Program-made: the position numbers and the translations under genes | In this document: one piece after another, positions 2,893 through 53,199 of the stretch | Position numbering within the stretch: position 1 is the stretch's first letter | Layout of the letters: each line of letters begins with the position of its first letter | The notes under the pieces: generated by a model | What the model was told of the DNA's origin: nothing | Database searches by the model: none | What the model saw: only the letters and a program-made list of their open reading frames with translations | Assembly (NCBI GenBank): GCA_030650395.1 | Contig: JAUSDY010000110.1 | Location: 1 to 64,000 of the forward strand | Direction of reading: 5' to 3' | Origin: Acidobacteriota bacterium | Lineage (GTDB): Bacteria > Acidobacteriota > Vicinamibacteria > Vicinamibacterales > UBA2999 | DNA length: 64,000 nt

Positions 2893-3834
2893 ATGAAAAA
2901 GATCGGCATTCTCTTCGGGATGGAAAACACGTTCCCGGGCGCGCTCGTGGAGCGCATCAACGAGATGAACGTGACCGGCGTGACGGCGGCGTACGTGCAG
3001 ATCGGCGACGTGCGGATGGCCGAGTCGTGCGGCTACGACGTGATCGTCGACCGCATTTCGCACGACATCCCGTTCTACCGCGCGTATCTCAAGAACGCGG
3101 CGCTCTGCGGCACCAAGATCATCAACAACCCGTTCTGGTGGAGCGCGGACGACAAGTTTTTCAACTACGCCCTGGCCACCAAGCTGGGCGTGGCCATCCC
3201 GCCGACGGTGCTGCTGCCCCACAAGGAGCATCCGACCGGCACCACCGAGCGATCGCTGCGCAACCTCAAGTACCCGCTCGATTGGGAATCGATCTTCAAA
3301 TACGTCGGGTTTCCGGCGTTCCTGAAGCCGTTCGACGGCGGCGGCTGGCGCGACGTCTACAAGATCAACAACGCCGACGAGTTCTTTGTCGCGTATGACC
3401 AGACCAAGACGCTCTGCATGACGCTGCAGCGCGGCGTGAATTTCAAGGAGTACTTCCGCTGCTACGTCGTCGGGCAGGAGAAGGTCCTGATCATGCCCTA
3501 CGACCCGCGCGCGCCGTTTCATGAGCGCTACGTGCAGAACCCGCCGGCCTACCCGCAGGAGCTGCTCGCGCGCGTGGAACGGGATTCGCGCACGCTGTGC
3601 AAGGCGCTGGGCTACGACCTGAACACGGTCGAGTTCGCGGTCGAAGACGGCGTGCCGTACGCGATCGACTTCATGAACCCGGCGCCCGACGCCGACTTGC
3701 ACTCGGTGGGCCAGGCTAACTTCGACTGGATCGTCGAGGCGGTCGCGGACCTCGCCGTCAAGAAAGCCACCGAGCCGGCATCAGCCGGCCCTTACCGCTG
3801 GGATACCTTGTTGAAGGGTTCTGATGGGTTCTGA
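2893..3834 (+). CDS. RimK-like ATP-grasp ligase
   Basis: This 313-residue protein has the layout of RimK/D-Ala-D-Ala-ligase-type ATP-grasp enzymes: an N-terminal Rossmann-like part (KKIGILFGMENTFPGALVERIN), the nucleotide-binding Lys strand (FPAFLKPFDGGGWRDVYKI) and the Mg-binding end (NTVEFAVEDGVPYAIDFMNPAPD). ATP-grasp enzymes activate a carboxylate as acyl-phosphate and join it to an amine. The neighbours are a GCS2-type ligase, an aminopeptidase and another ATP-grasp-like protein, so it probably forms an amide or peptide bond in a shared pathway. Its last residues (KGSDGF) are encoded by the start of the array at 3814. Substrates unknown. Confidence 0.88.
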   Translation: MKKIGILFGMENTFPGALVERINEMNVTGVTAAYVQIGDVRMAESCGYDVIVDRISHDIPFYRAYLKNAALCGTKIINNPFWWSADDKFFNYALATKLGVAIPPTVLLPHKEHPTGTTERSLRNLKYPLDWESIFKYVGFPAFLKPFDGGGWRDVYKINNADEFFVAYDQTKTLCMTLQRGVNFKEYFRCYVVGQEKVLIMPYDPRAPFHERYVQNPPAYPQELLARVERDSRTLCKALGYDLNTVEFAVEDGVPYAIDFMNPAPDADLHSVGQANFDWIVEAVADLAVKKATEPASAGPYRWDTLLKGSDGF

Positions 3835-3917
3835 ACGGTTCAGAAGGGTTCGGAAGGGTTCGAACTTGTCGGAACCTTTCAGAACCGTTCAGAACCACTC
3901 AGAACCTTTCTGAACCA
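3814..3917. repeat. Inverted GGTTCAGAA/TTCTGAACC word array
   Basis: Copies of AGGGTTC and GGTTCTGAAC are followed by GGAACC, TTCAGAACC and CTTTCTGAACC, giving a foldback structure between the ATP-grasp and YbdK-like genes. It supplies the stop codon region of the upstream gene and ends 1 bp before the start codon of the next, so no Shine-Dalgarno sequence is visible for that gene. Confidence 0.88.
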
Positions 3918-17120: not shown

Positions 17121-17132
17121 AGTTTGGCCTTT

Positions 17133-18410
17133 ATGAAGATTGTGCCGTCAACCAACCGCCGCGCAGTCGACCAATTGCTGTCGGCGACGCGGGTGCGCGA
17201 TCGCGCCACCGAGCGGCGGGCGGCGGAGATTATCGCGCGCGTCCGGCGCGGCGGGGATGCGGCGCTGGCGCGCTACGCCCGCGACCTCGATGGCCATCGC
17301 GGCGCCATTGAAGTGCCGCGGCGCGCCTGGGAATCACGGGCGCGTCCGTTGGCGCCGGCGGCGCACGCGGCGATCAAGCGCGCCGCCTCGAACATCCGAA
17401 AGGTGTCGCGGCAGCAGGTTCCAACCGGGTGGCGGCTGAAGGTGGCAGCGGGCATCACCGTCGAGCAGCGCGTCGTTCCGATCGCCAGCGTCGGCTGCTA
17501 CGTGCCCGCGGGACGCTACCCCCTGCCCTCGTCTTTGTTGATGACGGCGATCCCGGCACGGGCGGCGGGTGTGCCGGAGGTGGTCGTCGCGTGCCCCAGG
17601 CCCGACGCCGCGGTGTTCGCAGCGGCGATCGAAGCCGGCGTCGACCGCTTCTTTCAAATCGGCGGGGCTCACGCGATTGCGGCGCTTGCTTATGGCACGC
17701 GGACGGTGCCGCGGGTCGACAAGATCGTCGGGCCCGGTAACCGGTGGGTCGCCGCGGCCAAGTCGCTCGTATCGGCGGACTGCGGCATCGACTTCTACGC
17801 CGGCCCGACCGAGATCCTGATCGTGGCTGCAAGCGGGTCCCCGGCATGGATCGCGGCCGACCTGCTCGCTCAGGCCGAACACGACCCAGACGCGCGGGCG
17901 GTCTTCATCACCACCAATCGACGGCTGGCAGACCGCGTCGCCGTCGAAGTCGAAGCGGCCATGCCGGCGTCAGGTCCCGCGCGCCAGGCGATCGCGCGGC
18001 ATGGCGGCATCATCGTGTGCCGCGGCATGAACGAGGCGATGGCACTGGCCAACACCGCCGCCCCGGAACACTTAGTGGTGGGAACCGAGGCACTGGCACG
18101 GCTCGTCTGGAATGCTGGTGCGGTATTCGTGGGCGGATGGACGGCGCAGGTGGCCGGCGATTACGCGATCGGATCGAATCACGTGCTGCCAACGGCCGGC
18201 GCCGCGCGCTATCGCGGCGGGCTGAACGCCGCCGATTTCGTCAAGCTGGTGTCGGTGCAGCGGATGACGAAGGCGGGCCTCGGGCGAATTGCGAAGACCG
18301 TCACGACCCTCGCCCGCGCAGAGGGATTGAAATGCCACGCACGTTCGATCGATGTAAGGCAGAAGGCAGACGCAAGGCAGAAGGCAAAAGGCAGAAGGCA
18401 AAAGCGATGA
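17133..18410 (+). CDS. hisD: Histidinol dehydrogenase with a repeat-encoded tail
   Basis: The HisD pattern is clear: GCYVPAGRYPLPSSLLMTA, IGGAHAIAALAYGTRTVPRV, GPGNRWVAAAK, FYAGPTEILI, AQAEHDPDA and NHVLPTAGAARY, which includes zinc-ligand and substrate residues. It oxidises histidinol to histidine in two steps. ATG 17133 is chosen over an upstream in-frame TTG. The last 20 or so residues ([19 protein letters not shown]) are strongly basic and encoded by the GGCAGAA array at 18356; they are not part of the HisD fold. The stop overlaps the hisC start (ATGA). Confidence 0.95.
   Translation: MKIVPSTNRRAVDQLLSATRVRDRATERRAAEIIARVRRGGDAALARYARDLDGHRGAIEVPRRAWESRARPLAPAAHAAIKRAASNIRKVSRQQVPTGWRLKVAAGITVEQRVVPIASVGCYVPAGRYPLPSSLLMTAIPARAAGVPEVVVACPRPDAAVFAAAIEAGVDRFFQIGGAHAIAALAYGTRTVPRVDKIVGPGNRWVAAAKSLVSADCGIDFYAGPTEILIVAASGSPAWIAADLLAQAEHDPDARAVFITTNRRLADRVAVEVEAAMPASGPARQAIARHGGIIVCRGMNEAMALANTAAPEHLVVGTEALARLVWNAGAVFVGGWTAQVAGDYAIGSNHVLPTAGAARYRGGLNAADFVKLVSVQRMTKAGLGRIAKTVTTLARAEGLKCHARSIDVRQKADARQKAKGRRQKR
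18356..18406. repeat. Single-arm GGCAGAA (7-bp) array forming the hisD tail
   Basis: About seven GGCAGAA/GGCAAAA units run to within 1 bp of the hisC start codon. There is no reverse-complement arm. Seven is coprime with three, so every frame of this strand reads the same basic heptapeptide (GRRQKAE or GKRQKAK) with no stop. Confidence 0.92.
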
Positions 18411-21467: not shown

Positions 21468-21555
21468 AGGCAACCACGAAGAACACGAAGACCACGAAGA
21501 AAACCTCTTAGAATGTATTCCTTCGTGTCCTTCGTGCCCTTCGTGGTTGCATGGT
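21468..21555. repeat. Inverted CCACGAAGAACACGAAG array between hisF and hisA
   Basis: ACCACGAAGAACACGAAG words are answered by CTTCGTGTCCTTCGTG and CTTCGTGGTT around an AT-rich centre. It interrupts an operon, so it is unlikely to be a strong terminator. Confidence 0.92.
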
Positions 21556-27284: not shown

Positions 27285-27436
27285 AAGTTGAAAGTTGAAG
27301 GTTGAAAGTTGGAAGTTTCAGTTCCAAGTTCAGTTTCAAGTTCAAAGTGATCGGCGCGGAGCATAACTGTCAACTCCTAACTTTCAACTGAACTGAAAAC
27401 TGAAACTTCCAACTTTCAACTTTCAACTTTCAACTG
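27285..27436. repeat. Inverted AACTTTC (7-bp) array at the Sir2 breakpoint
   Basis: AAGTTGAAAGTTGAAGG words on the left are answered by AACTTCCAACTTTCAACTTT on the right around GATCGGCGCGGAGCAT. The left end abuts the truncated sir2 gene and the right end reaches the stop codon of the esterase gene. Confidence 0.93.
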
Positions 27437-29990: not shown

Positions 29991-30109
29991 GTGGCTTCAG
30001 TAAGGGGCTGTTTGCCCAACTGCCGTTGAAACCCGTTGTCGCTCCGTCGATAAGGCTCACCCATGCGCCGTGGGCTTAAGGGATGCAATTTGAAAGAGGG
30101 GGAATAGTG

Positions 30110-33100
30110 ATGCGTTCGCTCACGGTTCGGATTTTCATGCTCGCTTGTCTTGTCCTTGCGCCGGCACTTGCGTCAGCGCAAACCAGCTCCATCAGCGGCA
30201 CCGTCAAAGACGACACGGGCGCGGTCATGCCCGGCGTCACGGTGGAAGCCGCCAGCCCGGCGCTGATCGAAAAGGTCCGTTCGACCACGACGGGTGGCTC
30301 GGGCCAGTATTCGATTCTGGCGCTCAGGCCCGGTATCTACACGGTGACCTTCACGCTCCCCGGTTTCCAGACCGTGGTGCGCCAGGGCATCGAGCTGACG
30401 TCGGACTTCACCGCCACGATCAACGTGGACTTGAAGGTCGGCACGCTCGAGGAAACGCTGACGGTCACCGGTGAATCGCCGATCGTCGACACGCAGAGCC
30501 TGACGCAACGCGTGGTGATGACGGCGGAAGTGCGCGAGGCGTTGCCGACCGGCCGCAACATCCAGGCGGTCGGCATCATGATTCCCGGCACGACCATCGC
30601 GTTCGGCGGTGGCGGGGCGCTGTCGCGCGATGTCGGCGGCTCGGGCAACCTGCAGCAGTCGCCTCTTCAGTACCGCGGCTCTGCCGACACCGTGCAGACG
30701 ATTGAAGGCATTCGCCTGAACAACCTCTGCGCGCAAGGCGCCTACAGTGGCGTCTACTGGAACGATGCCAGCTTCGAAGAGTTCAGCTACGTGACCGGCG
30801 CCGACTCGGCCGAAATGGGCCAGGGCGGTATGCGCGTCAACATGGTACCCCGCGACGGTGGCAACTCCTTCCGCGGCTCCGTGATCGGCAACTATGCCGG
30901 TGAATCATTCGGCTCCGACAATTGCGGCTCGCCGGGCATCGGCCAGGCGTGCACCCGCTCGAACCTGAGCGGCAGCAAGTCGTTCAACCGGAACAACACG
31001 CTCACCAACGTGGACGTGATCCAGAAGATCTGGGATATCAACCCGCAGATCGGCGGTCCGATCATCAGGAACAAAGTGTGGTTCAACTACACTTTCAGGA
31101 ACTGGGGCTCGGAAAAGACGAAAGCCGACGCCTACTTCGACTCGAACCCCTCGCAGTTCGTCTACGCGCCCGACTTTACCAAGCCCGGCATCGACGATGG
31201 GCACCTCACCAGCAACGCAGGCCGCATCTCGTGGCAGGTCAGCAGCAAGGATAAGATCTCGGTCTACCACGACAACCAGCGCAAGTACCGCAATCACTGG
31301 GGTATTCAGGCGGCGATACCGCCCGAGGCAGCCGGTGTGCAGGTGACACCCACTAGCTTCGTCAACGTCACGAAGTGGCAGCGGACCGCCACCAACAGGC
31401 TGCTGCTTGAAGCTGGCTTCGGCATGTACAACCAAAACTACACCGAGCTGTATCAGGCGGAAGTCACCGGCGACAACAAGAAAGTCTGGGACGACGCGGC
31501 TATTCAGAATGCGCGCGTCTACAACGTGGTCGACGCCTCGAACAACCGCCAGGCCAACGCCTGGCCGAACCCGGCGGATCATTACTCGGTGCTCCGCACC
31601 TTCATGGGCGCGGCGTCATACGTGGCCGGGGCGCACAGCCTGCGGGTGGGCGGCACGCTGAGCAACGGCGATTGGAAGTTGCTCACCAGATGGACAGGCG
31701 ATATGCAGCCCATCGTCTATAACGCCGGCGCACCGGTGCAGGTGACGCTCCGCTTGCCGTCGGACCGCAACAACGGCATCAACCGCGACCTCGGACTCTA
31801 CGCGCAAGACCGCTGGTCGCTCGGCCGCGTGACGTTGAACCTCGGCCTGCGGTTCGACCAGTTCATCGGCGAGTCGCGAGAGAGCGAAGTGCTCGCCAGC
31901 CGCCTGAGTGGCGGCGCCAAGTTCGGCCTGTGCGACGATGGCAAGGTCGACCCCGGCGACCTGTGTGCCGGCAAGGTGCAGAACTGGAAGGACATCTCGC
32001 CCCGCGTCGGCTTCGCGATGGACGTGTTCGGCAATGGCCGCACCGCTCTGAAGGCCAGCTTCGCGCGTTACGTGGCGGGTCAGCAGATCGCCGTGGCCAA
32101 TCAGGTGAACCCGATCGGCGCGCTCACCGCGGCTGACACCCGGGTGTGGCGCGATTTGGACGGCAACGGCCTGCCGCTCGACAGCAACGGCAACATCCAG
32201 TTCAATGAGCTGACCAATTCGGCGGCGACGCCGACATTCGGCCGCCTCACCGTTCCGACCACTCAGTACGATCCCGCCGTCCTGAACGGCTGGGGCGCGC
32301 GCGGCTACAACAACGAGTTCACCGTCGCCGCGCAGCACCAGCTCGCGGACCGGATCTCGGTGAACGGCGGCTACTATCGCCGCACGTTCGGGAACGCCAC
32401 CTTCACCGACGATCTGCGCTACGACGAGAACAGCTACGACACCTTCTGCATCACGGCGCCCTCCGATCCCGACCTGCCCGGCGGCGGTAACTACCAGGTG
32501 TGCGGCGTCAAGGACCTCAAACCCGCAGTCTTTGCGCAGGGCCTGCCGGCGAACGGCCTGATCCGGTTCTCGGAGGACTTTGGCGGCGAGACCAATCTCT
32601 TTCAAGGCTACGACGTCAACCTCGAGGCGCGGTTCCGCAACGGCGCGTTCCTCAAGGGCGGCATCGCAGCCACGGCACGCACTTTCGACAACTGCAACCT
32701 GCTCAAGGCCGGTCTTGATGCGGTGGTGGGCGCGGCGGCGCAGGGCACCGAAATCTACGCGGACGGCACCACCGCGTGCCATCGCGAGTACGGGTATCGC
32801 CCGGACGCGAAGATGTCGGGTTCTTACAGTCTGCCTTGGGGCGTCCAGCTGGCGGGTACGTATCAGTTCACCCGTGGCGTGCAGTCGGGCGCCGCTGGTG
32901 GGTCCAGCATCGGCGCCAGCTGGGCGGTGACGAGCGCGGTGGCCGCGCCCATGACCGGTCGCGCCGCTTGGACCGGCGTCGGATCACGGACGGTTCAGTT
33001 GATCCGCGACGGTCTCGACTACGGCAAGTACAACCTCAACCAGCTTGACCTGCGTCTGGGCAAGCGCTTCGAGGCCGGCAGGGCCAAGCTGCGTGTCGAC

Positions 33101-33247
33101 TTCGACCTCTACAACGTGCTCAACAGCAGCTGGCCCTACACAGTCAACGGGGCCTATTCGACGTCGGCGGCGGCGGCCCAGTGGCTGCGTCCGACCAACG
33201 TGCTGCAGCATCGGTTCTTCAAGTTCGGAGCGCACGTCAGCTTCTAG
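30110..33247 (+). CDS. TonB-dependent receptor with carboxypeptidase-regulatory-like domain
   Basis: ATG 30110 follows GAGGGGG and starts a signal peptide (LTVRIFMLACLVLAPALASA). Residues about 25-100 are a CarboxypepD_reg-like domain (SISGTVKDDTGAVMPGVTVE), then a plug (ESPIVDTQSLTQRVVM) and a large beta-barrel ending in Phe (HRFFKFGAHVSF). At 1,045 residues it is of the OmpA/Oar-like type that is abundant in Acidobacteriota and imports large substrates using TonB energy. The substrate is not evident from neighbours. Confidence 0.94.
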   Translation: MRSLTVRIFMLACLVLAPALASAQTSSISGTVKDDTGAVMPGVTVEAASPALIEKVRSTTTGGSGQYSILALRPGIYTVTFTLPGFQTVVRQGIELTSDFTATINVDLKVGTLEETLTVTGESPIVDTQSLTQRVVMTAEVREALPTGRNIQAVGIMIPGTTIAFGGGGALSRDVGGSGNLQQSPLQYRGSADTVQTIEGIRLNNLCAQGAYSGVYWNDASFEEFSYVTGADSAEMGQGGMRVNMVPRDGGNSFRGSVIGNYAGESFGSDNCGSPGIGQACTRSNLSGSKSFNRNNTLTNVDVIQKIWDINPQIGGPIIRNKVWFNYTFRNWGSEKTKADAYFDSNPSQFVYAPDFTKPGIDDGHLTSNAGRISWQVSSKDKISVYHDNQRKYRNHWGIQAAIPPEAAGVQVTPTSFVNVTKWQRTATNRLLLEAGFGMYNQNYTELYQAEVTGDNKKVWDDAAIQNARVYNVVDASNNRQANAWPNPADHYSVLRTFMGAASYVAGAHSLRVGGTLSNGDWKLLTRWTGDMQPIVYNAGAPVQVTLRLPSDRNNGINRDLGLYAQDRWSLGRVTLNLGLRFDQFIGESRESEVLASRLSGGAKFGLCDDGKVDPGDLCAGKVQNWKDISPRVGFAMDVFGNGRTALKASFARYVAGQQIAVANQVNPIGALTAADTRVWRDLDGNGLPLDSNGNIQFNELTNSAATPTFGRLTVPTTQYDPAVLNGWGARGYNNEFTVAAQHQLADRISVNGGYYRRTFGNATFTDDLRYDENSYDTFCITAPSDPDLPGGGNYQVCGVKDLKPAVFAQGLPANGLIRFSEDFGGETNLFQGYDVNLEARFRNGAFLKGGIAATARTFDNCNLLKAGLDAVVGAAAQGTEIYADGTTACHREYGYRPDAKMSGSYSLPWGVQLAGTYQFTRGVQSGAAGGSSIGASWAVTSAVAAPMTGRAAWTGVGSRTVQLIRDGLDYGKYNLNQLDLRLGKRFEAGRAKLRVDFDLYNVLNSSWPYTVNGAYSTSAAAAQWLRPTNVLQHRFFKFGAHVSF

Positions 33248-33254
33248 CGATTAG

Positions 33255-33402
33255 GAAGGCAGAAGGCTAAAGGCAGAAGGCAGAATAGCGTTGTGAGACG
33301 CTCGTTGCTTTTCTGCCTTTTCCTTTTTGCCTTCTGCCTTCTGCCTTTTGCCTTCTGCCTTCTGCCTTCTGCCTTCTGCCTTCTGCCTTCTGCCTTTCGC
33401 CT
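33255..33402. repeat. Inverted GGCAGAA/TTCTGCC (7-bp) array forming a signal peptide
   Basis: About four GGCAGAA units, a 25-bp loop with GTG 33293, and then about twelve TTCTGCC/TTTTGCC units. The second arm is read as FCLLPSA repeats. All three frames of that arm encode the same heptapeptide. Confidence 0.93.
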
Positions 33403-34978
33403 TGTTCTCGCACAAAGCGGCCCCGCCCAGCATCAGCCCCACCGCGGCCCCAGCGTCCCGCAGGAATTACTCGAGCGGCCGGTTTCAATTCGCACAGCTA
33501 TCGGCGCGGCGCATGATCAAGTGACGACCGCGTCGGACGAGGCCCAGCGCTTCTACGACCAGGGCTTGTCGTACCTGCATTCCTTCGTCTGGATCGAAGC
33601 GGCCCGATCGTTTCACCAGGCGCTGCGAAGCGATCCGGGCCTGGCGCTTGCGCACGTGGGCTTGAGCTACGCCTACCTCGAGTTGAACAAGCCCGACGAA
33701 GCGCGGCGCGCGATCGAGCGGGCGCGTGCGTTGGCCCCAAAGGTGTCGGATCACGAGCGCCGGCACATCGAGGCGCGCGCGCTGCAGATGGCCGCGGAAG
33801 ACAACCCGCGCGATCAAGCTCGCCTCGTCGCTTACCGTCAGGCGCTGGATGCGGCGATCGCCGCCTTCCCTGCCGACGTCGAGCTGCTGCTCAAGCGCGG
33901 CATGGCGGAATCGCCCGACCCCGCGGATCGCGGGCAGGGTTCGGTGGCCGGCTCCGTACCGTTTTTTGAGCGCGCACTCAAAGCGTCGCCGAATCACTTC
34001 GCAGCCCGTCACTACCTGGCGCACGCGGCCGAGAACGCCGGCCGCATGGCCGACGCCTTGGCGCATGCGGCTTCATTTTCGACACAGGCGTCCGAGATTC
34101 CGCACGCGCGGCACATGCACGGCCACGAGCTGCGCCGGTCGGGCCGGCCGGCGGAGGCCATTGTCGAATTCGAGGCGGCCGATCGCCTGCAGCGCGCGTA
34201 CTTCACGCGTGAGAAGGTCGCAGCGGAGCTGGATTGGCATTTCCCGCACAATCTCGATTTGCTTGCTGCTTCGCACCAGTACGTCGGACAGATGCGAAAA
34301 GCCGAGCCGCTGTTGAAAGAATCGTTCGCGCTGCCGTCGAGCCTGCTCGTGCAAGTGGTGAACAAGCGCGAGTGGCCGGCGTTCCTGCTCGCGCGGAACC
34401 GGCCGGCGGAAGCGCTGGAAGCGGCGAAGGTGCTCGTCGCCCATCCCAACCCGGTGGTGCAGGCGACCGGCCACATCGAAGCCGGCTTTGCGCTGCTGGC
34501 GACCAAGCGTTTTGGCGATGCGGCCAACGAGTCGAACGCGGCGCTCAAGGCGCTCAGAGGCGCGGCCGACGGCCAGGCGCTGGCGGTGATCGCACTCGAA
34601 GCACTGCAGGGCGAGTTTCTGTTGCGGACCGCGCAGCGCGAAAAGGGGCGGCAGGGCATGGAGCGCGCCGCGCAGAAATGGCGCGCGCTGCCGGGCCCCG
34701 ACGCATGGAGCCAGGCGCTGTTCCGATTGGAAGCCATGGCCCGCGCCGCGCGCGGTGTCGGCGACTGGCCGTTTGCCGCGCGGCTCGCCCAGCTCATGCT
34801 CGAGCATGACGCGGCCTACGCCGGCACCCATTACGCGCTGGCCCTGGTCGCCGAGCACGATGGCAACACCGCCACCGCAAAGCGGGAGTTCGATCTGGCT
34901 GTGAAGGCCTGGGCCGCGGCGGACAAAGACCTGCCGGAGCTGGCCCTCGCCCGTAGGGGTCTGACCCCGAGCAAGTAG
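33293..34978 (+). CDS. Secreted TPR-repeat protein whose signal peptide is repeat-encoded
   Basis: The mature 520-residue part is a helical repeat protein with TPR-like units ([61 protein letters not shown]). It begins with a near-ideal signal peptide: MRR, a hydrophobic stretch containing [21 protein letters not shown] (residues 14-34), and LVLA/QS as cleavage site. This stretch is the 7-bp array. GTG 33293 is the only reasonable start. The C-terminal GLTPSK comes from a GGGGTCTGACCCC palindrome. A loss of the mature start is not seen. Role unknown, perhaps protein-protein scaffolding. Confidence 0.88.
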
Positions 34979-53116: not shown

Positions 53117-53199
53117 CCTCTATCAGAGATCAGGTTTCAGGGATCAGCGGATCGGGATCAGCGTGCGCTGATCCCTGATCCCCGATCCCTGGTCCCATC
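53117..53199. repeat. Inverted GATCAGG/GATCCCT (7-bp) array
   Basis: ATCAGGTTTCAGGGATCAGCGG and GGGATCAGC words in two groups are answered by GCTGATCCCTGATCCC and CGATCCCTGG. It lies between the receptor gene stop and the PIG-L gene start. Confidence 0.9.

Follow-up and report, generated by a model that had tools for sequence, protein, structure and literature searches.

The window analyzed here, a 64,000-nucleotide stretch of an acidobacterial genome (G000), carries on its forward strand a TonB-dependent-receptor-like gene with an N-terminal carboxypeptidase-regulatory domain (30083..33247), followed by a gene for a predicted secreted TPR protein of 561 amino acids (33293..34978; Pfam TPR_17, TPR_19, TPR_2 and others). 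The TAG of the former (33245-33247) lies 45 nt before GTG 33293, the start codon of the latter, and a similar gene end also precedes the TPR orthologues within the genus. The junction holds a fold-back tandem array at 33255-33402. Its pyrimidine arm is a TTCTGCC array on the forward strand (33311-33396; TRF period 7, 12.3 copies, 89% matches) whose last six full units are identical. The inverse, purine-rich arm of AAGGCAG units (GAAGGCAGAAGGCTAAAGGCAGAAGGCAGAA; 33255-33285, forward strand) is 97% complementary to positions 33332-33362, and region 33255-33341 folds into a long hairpin. GTG 33293 falls in the loop between the two arms, and in the TPR gene the second arm alone is translated. Within the window, TTCTGCC dimers with at most one mismatch number 21, against 0.02 expected. 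Further fold-back tandem arrays, built from unrelated 7-10 bp units, lie at other gene junctions of the window (3812-3916, 21475-21545, 27285-27435 and 53122-53196). A first-pass annotation of this DNA had mentioned neither the fold-back with the start codon in its loop nor the AGAAT box, the truncation that a one-unit change brings about and the purine arm as a possible n-region, all of which are considered below.

The signal peptide (SP) predicted at 33293..33412 (forward strand) shows the features of a Sec signal: a basic n-region (MRRS), an uncharged hydrophobic core (h-region, residues 5-35) and, after R36, small residues at -3 and -1 of a VLA/QS motif. On these features, the TPR protein would be exported through Sec and cleaved at VLA/QS, after residue 40. 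The N terminus reads MRRSLLF...FRLVLA/QS, and most of it, residues 7-35, is encoded by the array, which supports the original proposal that the repeat makes up the SP. The FCLLPSA-type heptads reported for residues 14-34 are indeed there, though the first of them reads FCLLPFA, and residues 7-13 ahead of them form a degenerate heptad, FCLFLFA. The SP is atypical in its 31-residue hydrophobic stretch, its three prolines and the arginine before the cleavage motif; this and all other SPs were called by a home-made hydropathy/charge/cleavage rule, not by SignalP.

Because 7 is coprime with 3, the array remains stop-free and specifies the same residues in every frame. Translation confirmed that TTCTGCC gives FCLLPSA in all frames and its complement GRRQKAE, with no stops. 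Among 2340 heptamers, 50% contain no stop in either strand, and 68 (2.9%) combine a hydrophobic, uncharged product on one strand with a net basic product on the other, 29 of these 68 being pyrimidine-rich units. The cationic reading of the opposite strand, also anticipated, is real at the C terminus of a hisD-like gene (17124-18410, forward strand), where an array at 18356-18404 codes for a basic tail; the stop codon of that gene overlaps the ATG of the next gene at 18407.

Since 7 leaves a remainder of 1 when divided by 3, gain or loss of one TTCTGCC unit truncates the TPR protein, to 74-76 aa. Changes of +1, -1, +2 or -2 units give products of 69-81 aa, and +3 or -3 units restore the protein. 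Phase variation through one-unit slippage is therefore possible, and the site can be read as a contingency locus in which slippage turns the protein off and array length is maintained for the sake of switching. In Neisseria, the opa genes switch through slippage of CTCTT repeats located where the leader peptide is encoded (PMC3960869, PMC3745409). The two systems share a non-triplet repeat in the leader-coding part of an exported-protein gene, here a 7-nt unit with the array (33311-33396) inside the SP-coding region (33293-33412), and a frame that shifts as units come and go (PMC3960869, PMC3745409); the six identical units fit this reading too. However, phase variation has been demonstrated for opa, a single gene family with a single pentamer, whereas the present arrays concern numerous unrelated genes, consist of several heptamers unrelated to one another, are mainly intergenic and form fold-backs, switching being only possible. 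The same arrays also stand before genes without an SP, downstream of genes and in convergent junctions, so in general they do not serve switching, and proteins such as the POTRA protein described below are poor candidates for a switch. The two genomes compared for unit number, G000 and its relative G001, differ by 42 nt. A switch kept as such at the TPR gene appears unlikely.

Codon usage alone favors a start at 33521, which would turn the array into an untranslated leader and the TPR protein into a cytosolic one. Upstream of 33521, however, the only in-frame starts are GTG 33293 and TTG 33305, the stretch from the array to the conserved mature segment contains none, and a conserved QHxxH... 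segment, present in orthologues, is encoded before 33521. A start downstream of the array was rejected, since orthologues keep the GTG and the conserved N-terminal segment. The first-pass annotation had named an orthologue starting downstream of the array as evidence against its reading; G001, G002, G004 and G008 instead use the equivalent GTG. We consider a cytosolic protein with an untranslated array very improbable. Repeat mis-assembly or a decaying gene is scarcely credible: the genome is a draft of 180 contigs and the G003 orthologue has a stop, but G001, an independent assembly (also public contig MELE01000027.1), agrees in array, start and frame, and the open reading frame is intact. 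The differences between the G000 and G001 genes fall 87/64/205 on codon positions 1/2/3, a third-position excess that places the TPR gene under purifying selection.

The end of an array unit also makes a putative -10-like hexamer, CAGAAT (33281..33286, forward strand), 6 nt before the GTG; a consensus scan found no promoter at the TPR start. AGAAT followed by 6-7 nt and GTG is common to G000, G001, G002, G004, G008 and G031, the last of a different genus. The box reads TAGAAT in G002, G004, G008 and G031 and CAGAAT in G000 and G001, where it derives from the array-unit end. In the surveyed stretches of G000, G007 and G004, TANNNT is most frequent 6-7 nt ahead of start codons (34 and 22, compared with about 6 elsewhere), the arrangement expected for leaderless transcripts, pointing to common leaderless transcription in the genus.

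Clear TPR orthologues were found in seven genomes of the same genus (67-81% identical within the genus) and in two genomes of the family outside that genus, each of another genus or genera. The G005 orthologue has lost its N terminus at a contig end. That of G003 has an internal stop and lacks a good start, so one species at least can do without the TPR gene. SP-like N termini were recognized in G001, G002, G004, G007, G008, G029 and G031, mostly unrelated in sequence; GTG correspondence was read from unaligned sequences, MAFFT having misaligned the start region. G001 retains the GTG and an in-frame array that is 42 nt (6 units) shorter than that of G000. The array-free orthologue of G029 has an ordinary SP, MGCRAYVAFVTMGLLASASLAFA/QH. 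Comparison with array-lacking orthologues, as the first-pass annotation had proposed, upheld an SP at this place but points to the array as a replacement for an older SP. At the same position, G002, G003, G004, G007 and G008 have a GC-rich hairpin and then T-rich sequence. The SPs of TPR orthologues (L024, L025, L026, L027, L028) are coded across this terminator-like hairpin, which is common to the genus: in G002, G004, G007 and G008 the SP crosses it (GAAGAGCGGGAAG...CTTCCCGCTCTTT in G004), its purine arm coding for KSGKS and its pyrimidine arm for GFPLF.

Across G000, TTCTGCC yields 67 overlapping matches and about 25 places with at least three units, against 0 for a reversed-pattern control. 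Nearly all of these places are gene junctions, mostly with the purine strand as the coding strand after the upstream stop; such numerous intergenic copies are what is expected of an STRR-like repeat. A survey with a simple gene caller covered 0.86 Mb of G000 together with 0.40 Mb from each of G007 and G004, and census rows that were ordinary GC-rich coding repeats, above all those of G004, were left uncounted. Among paired arrays (units of 6-12 bp) at co-directional junctions, a purine arm followed by a pyrimidine arm outnumbers the opposite order 28 to 3. Targeting of arrays to secreted genes was rejected: the downstream gene had an SP in 49 of 140 cases (35%), against a baseline of 375 of 1007 (37%). 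Without enrichment before SP genes, the arrays are best taken as general gene-junction repeats that are not there to make SPs but that SPs can accommodate and incorporate. A hidden heptamer ancestry of SPs at large was likewise rejected, as lag-7 identity in unflagged SPs (0.262) is much the same as at control lags (0.263 at lag 4, 0.258 at lags 10 and 13); with no lag-7 excess outside flagged SPs, the process touches no more than a few percent of all SPs.

The fold-back could instead be kept as a nucleic-acid element (a terminator, 3'-end stabilizer, start-codon attenuator or cruciform) whose translation is incidental. The purine-first order of paired junction arrays, the long hairpin of 33255-33341 and the GC-rich hairpin with T-rich sequence at the same place in five relatives argue for such a role. 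Against it, many arrays are one-armed, consensus scanning returned only a weak terminator-like site (1 against 0.8 in shuffles), and a structural role does not account for the need of the downstream protein for GTG 33293. We hold this to be the less probable reading, albeit a serious one; it and the SP reading can both be true.

In G000, an array writes all or part of the SP of at least nine genes, namely the window TPR gene, three genes from TTCTGCC loci and five from the survey. Orthologues were compared for seven of the nine, in series picked because G000 carries the array. In each of the seven series, some species have a conventional SP and others an array-coded one, the latter being built from units such as TTCTGCC, GGTTATT, TTCTTTG or CCTTTTT, and the protein families include a POTRA protein, an FG-GAP/ASPIC lipoprotein, an SLT transglycosylase and an M14 peptidase. 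Two features of the M14 peptidase gene stay constant, a start codon that overlaps the stop of the preceding gene and a mature segment QEPxLWPGAKYD (QDLWPGAKYD in G007). Between them, the SP is GGTTATT-coded in G000 (MKRQQVWLLVIGYWLFLATPVAA), TTCTGCC-coded in G001 and G007 (MKRVLLFALCLLPSALAGA in G007), conventional in G003 (MMKRALYVCLCVVSLLGPAAASA) and CTCTGTGTC-like in G002, G004 and G005. The SP of the gene at L005 is written by TTCTGCC in G000 and G001, by CCTTTTT in G007 (MKRKKEKGKRTTRFVLCFSFFVFPFNFAQA) and by a 9-mer in G008, and is conventional in G004 and G005. For the SLT gene, an AATAACC/AATAACA fold-back supplies the SP in G000 and G001, TTCTTTG does so in G006, and in G008 a GAAGAAC fold-back surrounds the start; G003 and G004 have conventional SPs. 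The POTRA and FG-GAP genes carry an array in G000 only, the lipoprotein SP being ...FCLLPLGC there versus MRIRVVILVLCAAGC in G005, and the gene at C171:72044 has arrays in G000 and G007 that are absent in other species. When codon order was shuffled within each SP, all seven G000 SPs reached p=0.001, the floor of the test, and among the 43 orthologous SPs there were 14 with p<=0.002; only the 43 allow a fair count, because the seven series were chosen on G000.

The position of the start relative to the arms varies. In three genes of G000 (POTRA, FG-GAP and L005), as well as in the L005 gene of both G001 and G007, it is found within the purine arm or ahead of it. This gives n-regions such as MQKAETRR... 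and MKRKKEKGKR..., after which the pyrimidine arm supplies the core, which in the FG-GAP protein runs into a lipobox. Since the codons of the pyrimidine arm stand mainly for F, L, P and S, and those of the purine arm for K, R, E and G, the former translates into an h-region and the latter into an n-region. Array-free homologues have SPs in all seven series, so the arrays replaced the SPs of proteins that were already exported, and the replaced SPs still have the look of functional ones. With no preference for secreted genes either, the idea that the birth of an array creates localization signals finds no support in the form proposed; among the series compared, no gain of export by a cytosolic protein was found, only replacement.

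Signal peptides evolve fast, and Kaiser and colleagues reportedly found in 1987 that they tolerate wide sequence variation. With its TTCTGCC array as the pyrimidine arm, the gene junction holds a fold-back tandem-repeat element of a kind that is scattered through the junctions of the genus regardless of the neighboring protein. Given how loose SPs are in sequence, an array entering the 5' end of a gene for an exported protein could replace the old SP and, as the seven orthologue series suggest, be kept while the frame holds. The TPR gene would be one such case, shared with G001. Judging from sequence comparison, GTG 33293 very probably opens an exported TPR protein whose Sec SP is encoded by the junction fold-back TTCTGCC array.

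TTCTGCC was found in 20 of 162 genomes of the order, and its confinement to the clade was rejected, as arrays occur also in Cyanobacteria, Bacteroidetes, Verrucomicrobia, Nitrospira and others (L052-L131). Among the 80 loci listed, TTCTGCC-coded SPs precede at least three exported-family proteins in other phyla, namely a TolB-like protein of Nitrospira japonica, a glucosaminidase of Bacteroidetes and a CusB/HlyD lipoprotein of Niastella soli. The available portions of two studies describe heptamer arrays that are dispersed, lie near starts and stops and prefer one strand, including the Beggiatoaceae and cyanobacterial TAACTGA, the Xanthomonas and Nostoc GGGAATC and the Calothrix heptanucleotides (PMC4679880, PMC4692102); what is accessible of the former also covers frame-independent translation, tolerance at protein ends and the presence of TAACTGA in Cyanobacteria and Bacteroidetes (PMC4679880). 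TTCTGCC, like TAACTGA, forms arrays in distant phyla. The unit differs from TAACTGA and GGGAATC, the two compared; the present arrays form purine-to-pyrimidine fold-backs, and SPs from intergenic heptamers are not described in those portions (PMC4679880, PMC4692102). In Enterobacterales, orthologues differ by the insertion or deletion of entire SP regions, and transposable elements were sought there and not found, the accessible part of that study making no mention of repeat arrays as an SP source (PMC5952966). FCLLPSA, LLVIGYW and the array DNA had no match in the bacterial-repeat literature searched, nor did the portions of the literature covered by our search contain a description of recurrent SP overwriting by repeat arrays. 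Recurrent, repeat-driven SP turnover looks new.

To conclude, dispersing fold-back heptamer arrays are probably a recurrent source of new SPs, their arms serving in every frame as ready-made n- and h-regions. The heptamer that happens to spread in a lineage would repeatedly overwrite the SPs of unrelated secreted proteins, within the genus and, now and then, in other phyla. The start codons of genes with array-written SPs may be mispredicted by gene callers. The species series, in which the same start codon and the same mature protein enclose different repeats, give SPs a concrete source, and a simple rule of the genetic code, whereby an inverted repeat with purine and pyrimidine arms translates into a charged and then a hydrophobic stretch, yields the plan of a signal peptide.
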